DNA of 64,000 nt, from positions 1 through 64,000 of the forward strand of contig CALXAM010000007.1 of NCBI GenBank assembly GCA_944386285.1. The letters are read 5' to 3'. A program made the position numbers and the translations under genes. Below the pieces are notes generated by a model. That model was not told where the DNA came from, made no database searches, and saw nothing but the letters and a program-made list of their open reading frames with translations. The stretch comes from an uncultured Clostridia bacterium. GTDB taxonomy: Bacteria > Bacillota > Clostridia > Oscillospirales > Ruminococcaceae. The stretch's first letter is position 1. Every line of letters begins with the position of its first letter. Shown piece by piece: positions 18,907-61,010 of the stretch.

Positions 18907-19791
18907 TTACAATTCATCTGTCTCAATCCCCATTTTTGAAAAAAACGTATGCGTGTCATAGCGGTGGGCGCGATTAAACCGCCCCAGTACAATGGGAAGT
19001 GTATCCCCTTGCGAAATGCTTGAAACTTTTTCTTCGCATGAAAGGAGGATTTCGAAAGTCATTTCCTTTAAAACAGGTGCGCTTTCCTTGCAGATTGCAC
19101 CAAACGGATAGGCGAAAATGCGGGGCGCAGTATCTAAATGTTCCTCGCACAATTGATTCATATGTGATAAATCATCATATAACGCTTGCTGATATGACGT
19201 CACATCTTCGCCTGCCATTTTCTGAATTCCTTTTCTTCCACCGTTTTTTCCATCTCCGTGCATGTTGTACGTGTGACTTGCAAGTTCAAATACACCGCTT
19301 TGAAGCATTTCGCGCAGTTCTTCCCATCCGGTATTCGCGTAGTTGACATGACGCGGTTCATTGGGATCAGAAAATTGTTCTGTATATACACCGACGGGGG
19401 CAATGACCGCACACATTCCGTACTGTTTTAAAAGCGGGAACGCATAGACATACGTACTTAAAAACGCATCATCAAACGTGATCATCACGGCTTTTGAAGG
19501 GAGCGACTCACCGTTTTTTACAAACTGAAGAACAGCTTGCGCTGAAACCGTTTGATATCCTGCTTTTTTTAAAAACTTGAGATCTGACTCAAACTGTGCA
19601 GGTGAAATCACATAGTCTCCAAGTCTGGATGCTGATTCAGAAATGTGATGGTACATCAAGACTGGAAGTTGCATCGTTTGTTTGGGTGTTGCAGATGCAG
19701 GAAAAACCGGATGTTCTAAAAGTGTGCATGCTGCTACTAATAAAAAAGCCAATAGGACGGATGTCATTTTTTTACACAGTACTCGCTTCAA
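18907..19791 (-). CDS. Polysaccharide deacetylase (NodB domain), exported
   Basis: Protein of about 294 aa with an N-terminal signal (VLLAFLLVAAC, also a possible lipobox with C at the cut site) and a NodB fold: YHHIS, the TFDDAF metal/catalytic motif and the SHTYNMH histidine motif. Such enzymes deacetylate peptidoglycan or other N-acetylated glycans outside the cell. The start is a TTG: GGAGGG lies directly before a TTG at 19797 and about six bases before the TTG at 19791, which I prefer. It follows the PBP gene in the same direction, consistent with cell-wall work. Confidence 0.88.
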   Translation of the reverse strand: MKRVLCKKMTSVLLAFLLVAACTLLEHPVFPASATPKQTMQLPVLMYHHISESASRLGDYVISPAQFESDLKFLKKAGYQTVSAQAVLQFVKNGESLPSKAVMITFDDAFLSTYVYAFPLLKQYGMCAVIAPVGVYTEQFSDPNEPRHVNYANTGWEELREMLQSGVFELASHTYNMHGDGKNGGRKGIQKMAGEDVTSYQQALYDDLSHMNQLCEEHLDTAPRIFAYPFGAICKESAPVLKEMTFEILLSCEEKVSSISQGDTLPIVLGRFNRAHRYDTHTFFSKMGIETDEL

Positions 19792-19843
19792 TAACAACCC
19801 TCCTTTCCCATTTCAGTATATGCACAGTCGTTTTGCTTTTTTC

Positions 19844-23190: not shown

Positions 23191-23258
23191 GGGTTATGAT
23201 GTGCCAAAAAACCCAGTAATAATGCGGGTTTGCGGACATCCCCCAAATAGCCAAATCA

Positions 23259-23308: not shown

Positions 23309-23357
23309 GATGAGATAATTATAGATGGCTTTGAAGTAAAGCCATAAATACGATTAG

Positions 23358-23391
23358 GACTCCAGCTATAAAAAGTTGGAGTCTTTTTTTA
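23358..23391 (+). terminator. Intrinsic terminator
   Basis: GACTCCAGCT and AGTTGGAGTC form a 10-bp stem (one G-U pair) followed by seven Ts. It would stop guaA read-through before the first gene of the element. Confidence 0.88.
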
Positions 23392-23654: not shown

Positions 23655-23694
23655 AAGCCGCTTGTTTCTCTACGGAGAAGCAGGCGGCTTTTTT
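23655..23694 (+). terminator. Intrinsic terminator
   Basis: AGCCGCTTG(TTTCTC) and (GAGAAG)CAGGCGGCT form a long stem followed by six Ts. The outer sequence resembles the terminator at 43006. Confidence 0.85.
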
Positions 23695-23790
23695 GCGTTT
23701 TATAGGCAATTTTTAAAGGCTCAAAAATATTTTTAAATTTTTTTGTGATTTAGGGGGTGCATTTGACCTCTCCCAGTGGGAATAAGTGAA

Positions 23791-24160
23791 GGGGTTAAAT
23801 CCTGAACAAAGATTTCCCCCCCCTTCCTTGTAACTTGAAAACTGAATATGTAGGCACTAAGGACATTAGTTCTGATGAATAGCCCGAAGGTGGGTACGCC
23901 AAGACCTTTCAGCATTGAAAGCGAGCGAGAATTCCTGACCTGAAATTCGGTTTGCTACCGAAACGGCAATGACAGTCAGAATGATAATGATACTTCTCTA
24001 CGGAGCTGGCGGAGAACCCGGCAGAGGTGAAATTCCTATGATACGGTTTCGCAAACTGTAACCTTAGTGCTTCCCGCATAAAGCGAATCGCTTTCCGCAG
24101 GGGGTGTTGAGAACAAATACTGCGGCTGATACATAGCCAATCCTTATAAGACTGGCTGTG
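23791..24160 (+). ncRNA. Candidate structured RNA upstream of parA
   Basis: The 490 bases between the terminator at 23694 and parA hold no credible reading frame but are rich in helices. These include GCACTAAGG (23854-23862) pairing with CCTTAGTGC (24062-24070) around a 200-base domain. Inside are ATTCCTGAC/GTCAGAAT (23931, 23975), TTCGGT/ACCGAA (23946, 23957) and ACGGTTT/AAACTGT (24043, 24053). Outside are AAAGCG/CGCTTT (24080, 24089), AGCCA/TGGCT (about 24134) and a 5' hairpin GGGG..AAATC / GATTT..CCCC (23791-23821). It could be a leader RNA for parAB or a trans-acting RNA. I do not recognise it as a known family. Confidence 0.5.
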
Positions 24161-24189: not shown

Positions 24190-25020
24190 ATGTCAAACTG
24201 CAAAACAATAGCGATTTGTAATCAAAAAGGCGGTGTCGGCAAAACGACGACAACAGTAAACTTAGGAGTAGGACTTGCTATGCAAGGGAAAAAAGTTCTT
24301 TTAATTGACGCAGATCCGCAGGGCGATTTAACTACTTGTCTTGGTTGGAGAGATACTGACAGTCTTTCCTTAACGCTGACAGAAAAGCTTCAAGCAATCA
24401 TATCAGAACAGGAACAAAATCCTTTTGACGGTATTCTGCACCACGCAGAAAAGGTAGACCTTATACCCTCAAATCTTAGCTTATCTTCATTGGAAATGAC
24501 ACTCGTAACAGCAATGAGCAGAGAGTGTGTTCTGAAAAGTTATCTAAGCTTTGTAAAAGAAAAATACGACTATGTTCTCATAGATTGTATGCCGAGTTTG
24601 GGTATGATTACCTTTAATGCGTTGACTGCGGCAGACAGCGTTATTATTCCTGTTCAGGCACAGTACCTTCCTGCAAAGGGAATGACTCAGCTTCTTGGTA
24701 CGATTGCCAAAGTGAGAAAGCATACCAACGCTAATTTAAAAATTGATGGTATCTTGTTAACGCTTGTGGACGGAAGAACAAATCTTGCCAAAAGTACGGT
24801 AGAGACTCTGAGAGAAAATTTCGGCAGTCATATCAAAGTATATAAGTCAGCTATTCCAATCGCCGTGAAAGCGGCAGAAGTTTCGTCAAAAGGAAAAAGT
24901 ATTTATGCTTACGAGCCAAACAGTGCGGTGTCTAAGGCTTATGCCAATTTTACGAGGGAGGTGTTAGCTGATGGCAGGCAGAAAGAGCGACTTCACGCTT
25001 CCAATGAACACGCTCGATGA
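24190..25020 (+). CDS. parA: ParA family partition ATPase
   Basis: Soj/ParA-type ATPase, 276 aa. It has the deviant Walker A KGGVGKTTT near the N-terminus, the Walker B/A' region (DYVLIDCMPSLG) and VIIPVQAQYLPAKG. AAAGGAGG lies upstream, after a long structured leader. It would work with ParB to keep the excised circular form of the element stable in dividing cells. Its end overlaps parB by 50 bases, so the two are coupled. Confidence 0.94.
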   Translation: MSNCKTIAICNQKGGVGKTTTTVNLGVGLAMQGKKVLLIDADPQGDLTTCLGWRDTDSLSLTLTEKLQAIISEQEQNPFDGILHHAEKVDLIPSNLSLSSLEMTLVTAMSRECVLKSYLSFVKEKYDYVLIDCMPSLGMITFNALTAADSVIIPVQAQYLPAKGMTQLLGTIAKVRKHTNANLKIDGILLTLVDGRTNLAKSTVETLRENFGSHIKVYKSAIPIAVKAAEVSSKGKSIYAYEPNSAVSKAYANFTREVLADGRQKERLHASNEHAR

Positions 25021-25924
25021 ATTGTTTTCCTCGCAAGCAGAACGAGATGAAGCAAAGCTTTCAAAAATCAGAGATATTCCATTAAGTGAAATTGATGATT
25101 TCCCCGATCACCCATTTAAAGTTCGGGAAGATGAGGATATGTTTCAACTCGTGGAGAGTATAAAAGAGCATGGAGTTATTACGCCCGCAACAGTAAGGCA
25201 GAAAGATGACGGAAGATATGAACTTATTTCAGGACACAGAAGAAAAAAGGCTTGTGAGCTTGCCGGGTTTGAAACGCTGCGTTGTGAGGTGGTGGAACTC
25301 GACCGTGATGAAGCAACGATTTTAATGGTCGAAAGCAATTTCCAAAGGTCGCAGATACTTCCCTCAGAAAAAGCTTATGCTTACAAAATGCGGCTTGAAG
25401 CTATGAAAAGACAGGCAGGCAGACCGAGTAAAGAAAATGGTGCAACAGTGTTGCCCCATTTACAAGGTAAAAAAAGTCGTGAAATTCTTGCCGAAGAAAG
25501 CGGTGAAAGTCACGAGCAAGTAAGAAAATATATTCGCCTTACTTATCTTGTTCCTGAACTGCTTGAATTTGTTGATGAGGGCAAAATGAAAATGCGTCCT
25601 GCTGTTGAATTGTCTTATCTTAACGAGGATTGTCAAAGAGATTTGGTTGATGAAATCGACTTGAATGACTGTACCCCGTCCCACGCACAGGCAATTCGTA
25701 TGCGAAAGTTTTTCGAGGAAGGAAAACTTACACCGGAATCAATCCAAGCTATAATGAGTGAGGAAAAACCGAATCAGCGTGAAAAAATTGTGCTGCGTGG
25801 GGAAAGAGTGAGAAGTCTTATTCCGAAAGATGTTCCGATCGACCAAACGGAGGAATATGTCTGCAAGGCATTGGAACATTACAAAAAGTTTTTGAGAAAT
25901 CGGGCGGAGCGTGACAGCAGATGA
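24971..25924 (+). CDS. parB: ParB/Spo0J family partition protein
   Basis: Protein of 317 aa with the ParB N-terminal nuclease-like domain: IPLSEIDDFPDHPF, then GVITPATVRQ and the ELISGHRRKKACELAG box. It is followed by a helix-turn-helix region (SREILAEESGESHEQVRKYIRLTYLVPELL). Binds a centromere-like site and partners ParA; I did not find that site. The start follows GGGAGGTG, inside the end of parA. A low-complexity, A/T-rich stretch with no gene follows up to the lipoprotein gene. Confidence 0.92.
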   Translation: MAGRKSDFTLPMNTLDELFSSQAERDEAKLSKIRDIPLSEIDDFPDHPFKVREDEDMFQLVESIKEHGVITPATVRQKDDGRYELISGHRRKKACELAGFETLRCEVVELDRDEATILMVESNFQRSQILPSEKAYAYKMRLEAMKRQAGRPSKENGATVLPHLQGKKSREILAEESGESHEQVRKYIRLTYLVPELLEFVDEGKMKMRPAVELSYLNEDCQRDLVDEIDLNDCTPSHAQAIRMRKFFEEGKLTPESIQAIMSEEKPNQREKIVLRGERVRSLIPKDVPIDQTEEYVCKALEHYKKFLRNRAERDSR

Positions 25925-26851: not shown

Positions 26852-26872
26852 AAATTAAATCACATTATTCAA

Positions 26873-26908
26873 TGCACTGTGTAAAAAAACACGGTGCATT
26901 TTGTTTTT
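26873..26908 (+). terminator. Intrinsic terminator after the lipoprotein gene
   Basis: TGCACTGTGT and ACACGGTGCA form a 10-bp stem (one G-U pair) with a T-rich tail. It lies immediately before the ribosome site of the adhesin gene. Confidence 0.82.
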
Positions 26909-26926
26909 AGGGAGGTTTTAAAAACA

Positions 26927-29900
26927 ATGAAAACAAATCTTTTTAAGAAAGCGACTTCAGCGCTTCTTGCGCTTGTAATGTGTCTTTCGACTTTTATAGG
27001 TATTGGCTCTACCACAGCCTATGCCGCAGGTGAAAAAGCAGAAGCAATGCTCGTGTCGTTCCCCCGTGACGGAGACAGTAATTACAGCAATTCGTGGGGA
27101 CACGACAGCCTGACATTTATGAATGGGTGGAGTACAAAATCTGCGAAATATACAACCGTATATGCTGTAAACTCATACAGTGGTAATATTTGCTATTGCA
27201 TTGAGCCGGGCGTTCCCCTTAAAACTGGCAATGACCTTGTTTCAAAAGATGAAACCTATTGGGACAACTATCCCGACGACTATAACCATACAATTACGCC
27301 ATTTGAGATAAAAATGTTTGTCGGTCGAATTTTTCAGTACGGATATACTGGAACAATCAGCACAAGCTGGCGTTCTCAAAACGCTTCGGACGCCGATAAG
27401 CTTTCCGAAGCAATGGCAACGCAAATATTGATTTGGGAGACTGTTGTTGGAGAGCGTGATGAAAACTTTAAAAAGGTTGATACCGGAGGCTATAACGCTA
27501 TGCTTGATACTGTCAAAAAGGATCACCCTTTGCGCTCTAAAATGATGGAACATTACAATCGTATTGCAGAAAGTGTGCAGAAGCATAGTAAGCTGCCGAG
27601 CTTTTGCAGCAAGACAACCGGAAAAGCTGAAACTGTTGAGCTTGAATGGAATGGTAAGAACTATACCGCTACGCTCACTGACAGTAACGGCGTTTTAAGC
27701 AGCTATAATTTCTCGGCAAATCAGTCTGGTATTTCTTTTAAGAAAGACGGCAACAAGCTGACAATCACAGCAGAAAAAGCACCAAATTCAGAAGTTACAA
27801 TCACTGCCGAAAAGACCGCACAGCGAAAAGGCATTGTTGTGTGGGGCGACGGTATCTATAAGCCAAGCACCGGTATTCAAGACCTTGCAACCTATACACA
27901 GACAGTCAACGATCCTGTCAAGGGATTTATCAAGTTAAATGTTTCTTATGGTTCAGCAAAGATTGTGAAAACCGCAGAAGATGGAAAAGTTGATGGTATC
28001 AGCTTCCGTATTCAAGGCAATGGCATTGATAAAATCGTACAGACTGCAAACGGAGGGCAGATTCAGGTCGATAATCTAATGCCGGGTGTATACACCGTAA
28101 CCGAGCAGGAATATGACCAGTATGAAACACAGGAATCTCGCAGAGTAACCGTTGTTGCAGGACAGGTCGCAACCGTTACCTTCAACAACACCTTAAAGCG
28201 TGGCGACATTGAAGTTATTAAATCTTCAGAAGATAATTTCAACGAAGGTGTCACCTTCCACCTGTATGGTACTTCGCTTTCCGGTATTGAGGTAGACGAA
28301 TATGCTGTTACTGATGAAAACGGAGTAGCAATCTTTGAAGATGTGCTGATTAGCGGAACAACACCATATACCATTGAGGAAGTGGACACTGCAATCCGCT
28401 ATGTCATTCCTGAAGATCAGACCGCACCCGTTAAATGGAATGAGGTCACTACCCGTAATTTCACCAATATCCTGAAGAAGTTTACCGTTACCGTTACCAA
28501 GAGCGACGCTGAAACCGGAACAGCTCAGGGTAATGCTTCTCTCGCAAATGCAAAATACGGAATCTTTAAAGGCGAACAGCTTATTGACGAATACTACACC
28601 GACGAAAACGGACAGTTTACAACAAAGGAATATATCTGCGATTCAGACTGGACGATCAAAGAATTGGAGCCAAGCGAGGGATACTTGCTTGATCCGACTG
28701 TTCACAAGGTCGGTGCAGAGCCGGAGCTTTACACTATCGAGCATAATCAAACCGCAAATGATGTAAACGAACAAGTTATCAAAGGTAATATTGCCATCAT
28801 TAAACACACCGATAATGGCGATACACAGATTGAAACACCCGAAGCAGGTGCTGTTTTTGAAGTATATCTTAAATCCGCAGGCAGCTTTGCCAATGCAAAG
28901 GAATCTGAGCGTGACACACTTACTTGTGACGAGAACGGTTTTGCTCAAACAAAAGATCTGACTTATGGCGTATATACCGTTCATCAGGTTTCCGGTTGGG
29001 AAGGTCGTGAACTGATGGATGACTTTGATGTACTTATCTCACAGGACGGACAAACCTACCGTTACTTGATTAACAACGCCTATTTTGAGAGCTATATTCA
29101 AGTGGTAAAAGTAGACTCAGAAACAGGAAAAACCATTCCGTATGCAGGTGCAGGATTCCAGATTTATGATCCTTCCGGAAATTTGGTAACAATGCAGTTT
29201 ACTTATCCAACTCCAACTACCGTTGACACTTTCTATACCGACGCAAATGGTTCTCTCGTAACGCCGGAAAAACTGCCATACGGTAAAGGGTACTCAATCG
29301 TAGAGGTACAGAGTCCACACGGATATGTTCTCGACAGTACGCCTGTCTATTTTGATATTACAGAAGAAAATTCTTCTGAGGAAAGCGGGGTTACAGTGAT
29401 AAAAGTTGAAAAAGCCAATATGCCGCAAAAAGGAACGATCACCATTGAAAAAACGGGTGAAGTATTCTTTGGTGTTTCGGTAAGCGGAGGCACAGATGAA
29501 AACGGGCGGGAACTTCCCGTTATTTATCAGCCGATTTATGAAACACAAGGACTTCCCGATACAGTTTATGAAATTCGTGCAGCCGAAGATGTGGTAACTC
29601 CTGACGGTACGCTGAGATACAGCAAAGGCGAGCTTGTAGATACCGTTACAACGGATAAAAACGGATTTGCAAAGAGCTGTGAACTCTATCTCGGAAAATA
29701 TGAAGTCAAAGAAGTAAAAGCAGGATACGGAATGGTATTGAGTGATGAACCCCATACCGTAGAACTCGTTTACGCAGGACAAAATGTTGCTGTAACCGAA
29801 ACAGCCACTTCATTTGTCAACGAAAGACAGAAGGTTGAAGTAAGCCTTGAAAAAGCACTTGAAACAAGCGAGTTGTTTGGTATCGGCAATAATGGCGAAA

Positions 29901-31189
29901 TCAAAAATATCAGCTTTGGCTTATTTGCTGATGAAGAAATCATTTCCGCAAGCGGCACTTCTATTCCGAAAGATGGTTTAATTGAGGTTATCACTCTTGA
30001 TGAAAACGGAAAGGCGACCGTCAAAACCGATTTGCCTTTGGGCAGCTATTATGTAAAAGAGCTTGCAACAGATGAGCATTATCAGCTAAGCGGTGAAAAA
30101 TATCCCGTTGTATTTGAGTATGCGGGACAGGAAACCGCAACAGTGCATATTGCCGTGAATGACGGAGAGCCGATTGAGAATAAGCTGATTTACGGTTCGG
30201 TTTCCGGTAAAAAGGTTGATGAAAATGGCAAAGGACTTGGCGGTGCGCTCATTGGTCTGTTCAAGACTGATGATGTTGAGTTTACAAAAGAAAATGCCAT
30301 TATGACAACCGTATCCGGAGACGACGGCAGTTTCACTTTTGAAAATGTGCCTTACGGAAACTGGTATATCCGTGAGATCGAGCAGCCGACCGGATTCGTT
30401 CTTAATGATACTGTCTATGATGTGAATATTTCAGAGAACGGACAGACTATTGAAATTGAAATCGTCAATAAACTTGTTCGTGGCAATATCACTCTGACAA
30501 AGGTGGACGCTGAATACACCGATACGAAGTTAACGGGCGCTGTTTTTGAGATCTACAAAGACTCTAATGACAATGGCGAACTGGATAAAGAAGATGAGCT
30601 TATTGGAACACTGACCGAAAAAGAAATCGGGCAGTATGAAATGAATGATTTGCTCTATGGACGCTATTTTGTGAAAGAGACAAAAGCACCGGAGGGCTTC
30701 ACGCTGGACGAAGGCGTGTATGAAGTGTTTATTGACACCGACGGCAAGACCTATCAGGTCGAAAATACAGAGGGCAAAGGTTTTGCAAATGAGGCTATGC
30801 GTGGAAACCTGAAAATTGTGAAAACATCATCTGACGGAAAAGTGGAAGGCTTTGCTTTCCGAATCACCGGAGAGAACGGTTATGATGTTACTCTTGAAAC
30901 GGATAAAAACGGAGAAATTTTCCTTGAAGGTCTGCGCATTGGTGAATACAAGATTTCCGAAGTAAACAATTCGGCTTCCGCAATGTATATTCTTCCTGCC
31001 GACAAGGAAGCTACTGTTCAGATTGGCTCTACTACTATCGTAGAAATGCACAACGAACTGCGAGATACTCCGAAAACCGGAGATAACAGCAATCTTGGTC
31101 TTTGGCTTGCACTTGCAGGTGTATCGGCAGCAGGTATAGCAGTTTGCAGCATTCTTGGATTCAAAAGAAAGAAGAAAGGAGATAAATAA
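26927..31189 (+). CDS. Sortase-anchored thioester / Cna-B repeat adhesin
   Basis: Surface protein of 1420 aa. It has a signal peptide (to AYAAG, about residue 35), then an N-terminal thioester-like domain with Cys in CYCIEPG (C89/C91) and the partner Gln in ATQILIW (Q166), which in this family can form a Cys-Gln thioester and attach covalently to host targets. About ten Cna-B/SpaA-type beta-sandwich repeats follow, ending with TPKTGD near residue 1381, a membrane helix and a KRKKK tail. The sorting motif resembles the S/P-PKTG signals of C. difficile SrtB, and a class B sortase is encoded at 56690. GGGAGG sets the start; the longer frame is ignored. Likely mediates donor-recipient or host contact. 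Confidence 0.92.
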   Translation: MKTNLFKKATSALLALVMCLSTFIGIGSTTAYAAGEKAEAMLVSFPRDGDSNYSNSWGHDSLTFMNGWSTKSAKYTTVYAVNSYSGNICYCIEPGVPLKTGNDLVSKDETYWDNYPDDYNHTITPFEIKMFVGRIFQYGYTGTISTSWRSQNASDADKLSEAMATQILIWETVVGERDENFKKVDTGGYNAMLDTVKKDHPLRSKMMEHYNRIAESVQKHSKLPSFCSKTTGKAETVELEWNGKNYTATLTDSNGVLSSYNFSANQSGISFKKDGNKLTITAEKAPNSEVTITAEKTAQRKGIVVWGDGIYKPSTGIQDLATYTQTVNDPVKGFIKLNVSYGSAKIVKTAEDGKVDGISFRIQGNGIDKIVQTANGGQIQVDNLMPGVYTVTEQEYDQYETQESRRVTVVAGQVATVTFNNTLKRGDIEVIKSSEDNFNEGVTFHLYGTSLSGIEVDEYAVTDENGVAIFEDVLISGTTPYTIEEVDTAIRYVIPEDQTAPVKWNEVTTRNFTNILKKFTVTVTKSDAETGTAQGNASLANAKYGIFKGEQLIDEYYTDENGQFTTKEYICDSDWTIKELEPSEGYLLDPTVHKVGAEPELYTIEHNQTANDVNEQVIKGNIAIIKHTDNGDTQIETPEAGAVFEVYLKSAGSFANAKESERDTLTCDENGFAQTKDLTYGVYTVHQVSGWEGRELMDDFDVLISQDGQTYRYLINNAYFESYIQVVKVDSETGKTIPYAGAGFQIYDPSGNLVTMQFTYPTPTTVDTFYTDANGSLVTPEKLPYGKGYSIVEVQSPHGYVLDSTPVYFDITEENSSEESGVTVIKVEKANMPQKGTITIEKTGEVFFGVSVSGGTDENGRELPVIYQPIYETQGLPDTVYEIRAAEDVVTPDGTLRYSKGELVDTVTTDKNGFAKSCELYLGKYEVKEVKAGYGMVLSDEPHTVELVYAGQNVAVTETATSFVNERQKVEVSLEKALETSELFGIGNNGEIKNISFGLFADEEIISASGTSIPKDGLIEVITLDENGKATVKTDLPLGSYYVKELATDEHYQLSGEKYPVVFEYAGQETATVHIAVNDGEPIENKLIYGSVSGKKVDENGKGLGGALIGLFKTDDVEFTKENAIMTTVSGDDGSFTFENVPYGNWYIREIEQPTGFVLNDTVYDVNISENGQTIEIEIVNKLVRGNITLTKVDAEYTDTKLTGAVFEIYKDSNDNGELDKEDELIGTLTEKEIGQYEMNDLLYGRYFVKETKAPEGFTLDEGVYEVFIDTDGKTYQVENTEGKGFANEAMRGNLKIVKTSSDGKVEGFAFRITGENGYDVTLETDKNGEIFLEGLRIGEYKISEVNNSASAMYILPADKEATVQIGSTTIVEMHNELRDTPKTGDNSNLGLWLALAGVSAAGIAVCSILGFKRKKKGDK

Positions 31190-31281: not shown

Positions 31282-31289
31282 TTGCTTGG

Positions 31290-31320
31290 GGGGCGGAGTA
31301 AAAAACTTCGCCCCTATTTC
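31290..31320 (+). terminator. Possible terminator
   Basis: GGGGCGGAGT and ACTTCGCCCC form a 10-bp stem (one G-U pair) with a short T-rich tail (TATTTCTATATT). A weak or attenuating terminator after the adhesin unit. Confidence 0.6.
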
Positions 31321-43005: not shown

Positions 43006-43049
43006 ATAGCCGCTTGGTTTTTATAAAAAATCAGGCGGCTATATTTTTG
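43006..43049 (+). terminator. Intrinsic terminator after the cargo gene
   Basis: ATAGCCGC and GCGGCTAT form the outer stem, continued by A/T pairs around a small loop, with a T tract after it. The CCGCTTG..CAGGCGG core is shared with the terminator at 23655. Confidence 0.78.
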
Positions 43050-52323: not shown

Positions 52324-52368
52324 AAGGGTGTTTCTAATGGTGTTATTAGAAACACCCTTCAGTTTTTT
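52324..52368 (+). terminator. Strong terminator inside the transfer operon
   Basis: AAGGGTGTTTCTAAT and its exact complement form a 15-bp perfect stem with a six-base loop, followed by TTTTTT. It sits between the pilin-like gene and the methyltransferase and should reduce expression of all downstream channel genes unless another promoter or antitermination acts. Confidence 0.9.
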
Positions 52369-60954: not shown

Positions 60955-61010
60955 AGACTGTCTGTTTGACAGATAGACAGTCTGAAAGCTCGCTTTTCAG
61001 CGAGCTTTTT
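60955..61010 (+). terminator. Tandem hairpins with terminator
   Basis: AGACTGTCT and AGACAGTCT (9 bp) are followed immediately by AAAGCTCGCT and AGCGAGCTTT (10 bp) and a T run. The second is a clear intrinsic terminator; the first is an additional hairpin or operator. Confidence 0.85.

Follow-up and report, generated by a model that had tools for sequence, protein, structure and literature searches.

A structured RNA of about 240 nt, encoded directly before parA at the left end of an ICE and at the head of its co-directional operon, is with a probability of about 0.86 a canT-type, cis-acting processive antiterminator of the main operon of that element, a reading that draws on its homology to canT of Tn916. 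The element begins within the 64,000-nucleotide stretch of clostridial DNA analysed here, referred to below as the window. In Tn916, canT spans 452 bp between orf8 and xis (Wirachman and Grossman 2024, PMC11658703) and acts in cis as an orientation-specific, processive antiterminator, most likely in the form of RNA, and is essential for transcription of the Tn916 transfer genes. Conjugation depends on canT because it carries transcripts past terminators (PMC11658703). The same study folded a single sequence, obtaining structures that were 'complicated' and hard to interpret, and noted some related elements as being without a recognisable canT (PMC11658703).

The ICE, of ~61 kb, is inserted just downstream of guaA and bounded by the 26-bp repeats at 23208 and 84510 (Table 1), between which the + strand encodes nearly all large genes. 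Its gene set comprises parA, parB, a MOBP-type relaxase, VirD4/TraG and VirB4-like ATPases, a CHAP protein and a sigma-70-region-4 protein, together with a PemK-like protein, an Xis-like protein and a tyrosine integrase, these last three named from their own sequence. The right end carries the tyrosine integrase, Xis-like and MobC-like genes and holds no second copy of the RNA.

Table 1. Features of the RNA and of the element that surrounds it, in window coordinates
Feature	Position	Strand	Remarks
guaA	21525-23183		upstream of the att repeat and the ICE
attL, 26-bp direct repeat	23208-23233; second copy, contig C7 84510-84535		just after the end of guaA (23183)
Intrinsic terminator	23357-23384	+	-16.4 kcal/mol; upstream of the RNA, insulator from guaA
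Second strong intrinsic terminator	23655-23690	+	-26.1 kcal/mol; upstream of the RNA
Promoter-like block TTGACC...ATAAGTGAAGGGG	23763-23794	+	putative promoter; recurs before boxA in many homologues
boxA-like element ACTTGAAAACTGAATA	23833-23848	+	same as rRNA leader/spacer boxA of relatives
Whole conserved RNA, boxA to closing stem	23833-24071	+	model R1, 207 bits
P1 closing helix	23852-23862/24062-24072	+	
P1b	23864-23868 (CATTA)/23985-23989	+	
P2	23870-23876/23975-23981	+	
P3	23882-23884/23965-23967	+	
P5	23897-23927	+	CGC-CAA-GA-hairpin-GA-GCG
P6 hairpin	23945-23963	+	
pemK core (P7-P9)	23984-24041	+	Rfam pemK RNA, RF02913
Most invariant motif AUAAUGAUAC	23984-23993	+	at the start of the pemK core
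P10 hairpin	24042-24060	+	
3' add-on hairpin, loop GGGGUGUUGAGAACAAAUA	24095-24125	+	after the main RNA
parA	24190-25020	+	first gene after the RNA
parB	24971-25924	+	
Terminator inside operon	26871-26900	+	predicted; gap between co-directional genes
Terminator-like site inside operon	31289-31315 (31221/31289)	+	predicted
Terminator-like site inside operon	43006-43042	+	17-bp stem
Terminator-like site inside operon	52324-52359	+	16-bp stem
Terminator inside operon	60985-61008	+	predicted

The relationship to canT emerges from R1, a covariance model built from 18 homologues with no Tn916 sequence among them, which was searched against the Tn916 copy in pCF10 (NC_006827; L159 in the coordinates that follow). 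A single strong match was obtained (L159:19379-19662, + strand, 101.6 bits, E 1.2e-30) that spans all 239 positions of the model, the next-best match in this copy scoring 18 bits. It lies between orf8 and xis and antisense to orf5, which is the mapped place of canT, and the Rfam pemK model independently matches canT at 19538-19638 of L159 with 55 bits. With the published offsets placed on L159 such that the orf8 stop ends at 19255, the active 452-bp fragment (+126 to +577) corresponds to 19381-19832, whilst the inactive 162-bp deletion (+229 to +390) corresponds to 19484-19645 and takes out the pemK core together with the 3' strand of P2 and most of P6. The inactivating S3 change, ATA to TGC at +283, falls on 19538-19540, the first three bases of AUAAUGAUAC, and the equivalent motif is present in the window. 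Because the R1 and pemK matches and the mutants all coincide, pemK RNA is identified as the 3' domain of canT and the window RNA as a canT homologue; the role of the motif itself is not simple, since a 400-bp canT fragment carrying the S3 change was still active (PMC11658703). The two RNAs share boxA, P1, P2 and the pemK core within a full-length match, as well as their strand, the type of element in which they reside and an operon with internal terminators, those in the window being predicted.

The first-pass annotation of this region had assigned the RNA to no known class, which holds only in part: the 3' domain is pemK RNA and the whole is homologous to canT. An Rfam scan of the entire 64 kb returned one family, pemK RNA (RF02913; 72.4 bits, gathering cut-off 34.8), whose match covers only part of the RNA. 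This orphan family, typed by Rfam as Cis-reg, models a 61-nt 3' portion of an RNA that is in truth ~4 times larger, and the first 11 positions of the model are unpaired, whereas here they are partly paired with a segment ~110 nt upstream. No paper on the function of pemK RNA was found among the open-access papers searched. Through canT the orphan family gains a function, strongly supported by homology.

Comparative evidence for the fold is decisive. The closing helix P1 has a core of 9 bp in which GCACTAAGG (23854-23862) pairs with CCTTAGTGC (24062-24070), exactly as the first-pass annotation had described it, and extends to 11 bp. In alignment A1, a MAFFT alignment of 18 homologues with a 45-pair structure, 88.8% of cells are paired and 34 pairs have changed on both sides; the 186 double-changed cells compare with 61.5 after shuffling, and none of 500 shuffles reached as high a value. 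The covariation score of A1 is 0.595, against 0.205 when shuffled and ~0.11 when the structure is slid, and G-U pairs are kept in the alignment. A larger set of 85 covariance-model matches gives 0.598 against 0.149, a figure biased by the fitted nature of that alignment. P1 and P2 were also assessed without any alignment, by comparing pairing within and between the sequences of 68 dissimilar loci: the strands of both helices pair far better within their own sequence, and for neither helix did any of 5000 cross-sequence permutations reach the observed mean. Strong compensatory change across 45 base pairs therefore supports the fold and bears out the claim of a large, structured RNA. Folding energy was dropped as a proof of structure in its own right, the region being moderately unusual in this respect (z -2.23, with 1 of 100 shuffles as good).

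Among the individual elements of the structure, the pattern of the AUAAUGAUAC motif occurs in 106 of 121 homologues, and P5 appears to form a kink-turn-like three-dimensional motif. The add-on hairpin that follows the main RNA is found in 32 of the 121, including the window (others are, for example, L003, L008, L012 and L074). Its 19-nt loop, GGGGUGUYGAGRACAAAUA, is nearly invariant and its stem covaries (own versus permuted pairing, 0/5000), while no Rfam family matches it. The UUCCC at 24071-24075, just after P1, could form a pseudoknot with the GGGG of this loop.

It had also been suggested that the RNA is a switch with two exclusive folds, in which one arm of the closing stem pairs locally, and that it might control ParAB or copy number. 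The local pairing of ACTAA with TTAGT does exist in the sequence, albeit with ACTAA at 23856-23860, one base from the position first given for it, but the alternative hairpin is neither conserved (p = 0.15) nor populated (ensemble probability 0.0, against 0.99 for P1), and the switch is consequently not upheld alongside the confirmed structure. A riboswitch or attenuator that governs only parAB, for partition or copy number, would fit the position of the RNA directly before parA, with the ribosome-binding site just downstream, and ParA does come first at 13 of the 106 homologous loci. The first gene at the others varies widely, however, being PemK at 39, a serine recombinase at 22, an integrase at 10 and a Tn916-type Xis at 1, so that the same RNA stands before differing genes in different elements and a ParAB-specific role is left unsupported. 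Moreover, the interval between the RNA and parA contains no terminator, and the Tn916 homologue antiterminates foreign terminators behind foreign promoters (PMC11658703), all of which makes control of parAB alone very unlikely. Such varied first genes would not be expected behind a regulator dedicated to one gene, but they would be behind an antiterminator that serves a whole operon.

The breadth of this distribution indicates that canT-type RNA is not a peculiarity of Tn916. Searches with the pemK model gave matches in 62 of 198 related genomes, with conservation around the matches reaching far beyond the Rfam model. R1 matches were obtained in 131 of the 391 sampled genomes of the class Clostridia, about a third, and in 27 of 299 from the phylum, often in several copies per genome and mostly at full length. 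Of 57 loci with a large ORF within 3.5 kb, 35 gave serine-recombinase and 18 tyrosine-integrase matches. A second, weak R1 match (30 bits) was noted in the same genome at the end of contig C25 (7-178, - strand), perhaps the edge of another element.

Immediately 5' of the folded RNA lies a boxA-like element, whose 16 nt match the boxA found in the rRNA leaders and spacers of relatives. The motif CCTTGAAAAYTGAATA, with variants containing TTGACAA, precedes the RNA in most homologues, and the rRNA leaders and 16S-23S spacers of relatives carry the same boxA, for example ACCTTGAAAATTGAACAA, GGACCTTGAAAATTGAACAAC and GTACCTTGAAAACTGAATAAG; six relatives were used for this comparison because the genome's own assembly is without rRNA. 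When an rRNA-derived motif was scored over 67 non-redundant loci picked by pemK, a model that excludes boxA, at least 12 of 15 positions matched in 73% of loci as against 3.7% of dinucleotide shuffles, and at least 14 matched in 39% as against none. The TTGACA within the element was considered as a -35 hexamer and rejected on inspection of the sequence, there being no -10 at the right spacing and the element being equal to the rRNA boxA. In rRNA operons, too, boxA stands 5' of a large structured RNA, although the rest of that RNA is unrelated to the one described here, and antitermination in rRNA operons bears chiefly on Rho and on the folding of rRNA (PMC5725501). No paper linking boxA with canT or with an ICE antitermination RNA was found among the open-access papers searched.

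The Nus factors NusB/NusE are probably bound at this boxA, to judge from its sequence. Whether they are is a question within the antiterminator reading, with which an incidental boxA that is no Nus-factor site would be compatible. That option derives some weight from canT itself: the active 452-bp fragment starts inside boxA (TTGAAAAC..., the leading CT being missing), so the full boxA may not be needed, and the canT study required no other element genes and proposed a direct contact with RNA polymerase (PMC11658703). Nevertheless, even divergent homologues keep boxA at the same fixed position, its sequence equals the rRNA boxA of related hosts, and we regard an incidental boxA as possible but somewhat doubtful. 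The rRNA-like boxA makes it testable whether canT-like RNA antiterminators act alone on RNA polymerase or via Nus factors.

Two further readings would set antitermination aside. A trans-acting non-coding RNA (antisense, decoy or guide) that overlaps canT by chance might also be large and strongly structured and might carry a 5' boxA, as structured rRNA precursors do. Such a role is highly improbable, given that canT acts in cis only and does not complement in trans (PMC11658703), that the RNA is always upstream of element genes and mostly co-directional with them (at 102 of the 118 loci where an ORF was called), and that no partner protein is constant across homologous loci. A structured DNA site, such as an oriT or att region, would account for the many stems near the end of an ICE, yet the att repeat is 600 bp away, the oriT of Tn916 lies elsewhere than canT (PMC11658703), canT is orientation-specific and behaves as RNA, and the alignment retains G-U pairs; this reading can hardly be entertained. 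A part in DNA transfer, as originally suggested for the RNA, is borne out only indirectly, canT being needed for conjugation via the passage of terminators (PMC11658703).

The operon that follows offers predicted terminators on which a processive antiterminator could act. The sites inside it (Table 1) occupy gaps between co-directional genes, and in a strict scan intergenic terminators were found on the + strand only, whilst raw counts were only slightly above expectation in the first 20 kb (22 against 17.7 in shuffles) and stood at 26 against 15.1 in the next stretch. No sigma-A promoter was detected on the + strand between 23690 and 24190. The block that recurs before boxA ends in ATAAGTGARGGG and, together with the sigma-like protein encoded by the ICE, suggests that the block may be an element-specific promoter. 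Under the antiterminator reading, transcription would start upstream of 23833 from this putative promoter, possibly served by the element's own sigma-like factor, and the nascent RNA would present an rRNA-type boxA before folding into several helices enclosed by P1, the pemK core included. Once folded, the RNA would stay with RNA polymerase, probably together with Nus factors at boxA, and cause intrinsic terminators to be ignored. The upstream terminators would keep the guaA transcript of the host out of the element and those inside the operon would stop stray polymerases, such that only polymerases having transcribed the RNA would complete the long transfer operon; passing the internal terminators would thus be the job of the window copy. 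As a separate observation, a promoter-like block of the form CCCCTC-N~13-ATARGTGAGGGG recurs upstream of boxA in L013, L032, L037, L060, L074, L076 and others, where the block often comes just after the end of an ORF that reads like a sigma-factor HTH; it may be a promoter specific to the element.

In its arrangement the window copy differs from that of Tn916. There, canT sits ahead of xis-int at the right end, and its route to the transfer genes leads only through the circle junction and terminator T1, which is crossed only after excision. Here, the left end carries the RNA with parA directly after it, the terminators near attL are upstream of the RNA and a 3' hairpin with a conserved loop has been added. 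As both insulating terminators lie upstream of the RNA rather than between it and the operon, this copy need not couple expression to excision.

A second orphan Rfam family, dinG RNA (RF03082), is probably a variant of the same RNA as canT and pemK RNA, since it shares AAUGAUACUUC with the window RNA and one of the two loci examined matches R1 over its full length (60.1 bits) and has a boxA upstream; it would then probably gain a function too. It is unlike the window RNA in its shorter core and altered helices, with only two examples seen. The dinG RNA loci L171 (1564-1750) and L172 were observed to carry boxA and the same upstream motifs. Other RNA-based or part-RNA processive antitermination systems that head long operons are conAn of pLS20, EAR of Bacillus and put of HK022. 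R1 found no match at the start of the pLS20 conjugation operon when the first 9 kb of pLS20 were scored with the full model (best 7.3 bits), for which reason conAn2 of pLS20 was rejected as a homologue, and the Rfam EAR model has no match in the window.

Judged against the open-access papers searched, what is new here is the family-wide structure with covariation, which replaces the single-sequence folding of canT, the uniting of canT with pemK RNA and probably with dinG RNA, the rRNA-like boxA, the breadth of the family and the left-end arrangement with its 3' hairpin. A broader proposal, to which we would give even odds, is that the superfamily of canT, pemK RNA and dinG RNA is the standard transcription-licence device of clostridial conjugative elements, in which the rRNA boxA has been copied to recruit the Nus machinery of the host and a ~220-nt structured RNA extends antitermination from Rho-dependent to intrinsic terminators. 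If true, an rRNA-like antitermination complex has been taken over by mobile DNA. The family also provides a sequence handle by which transfer operons could be found, and switched off, in ICEs bearing antibiotic resistance.

Several other observations concern the content of the element. Near its right end lie the gene for the sigma-70-region-4 protein (L161:19209-19829, contig ~81208-81828) and that for a PemK/MazF-like protein, recognised by sequence with no Pfam scan (L162:101-673, contig ~81900-82472); no copy of the RNA accompanies this PemK/MazF-like gene, whereas elsewhere the RNA is often directly before PemK. Within the transfer operon, a 1431-aa surface protein with a thioester domain and SpaA repeats (window 26894-31189) resembles the thioester protein in pLS20 and that in L067. 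The cargo of the ICE includes a DNA methylase and ResIII/endonuclease pair, similar to type III restriction-modification (L161:7376-12735, contig ~69375-74734), which is followed by an ImpB/UmuC-family gene.
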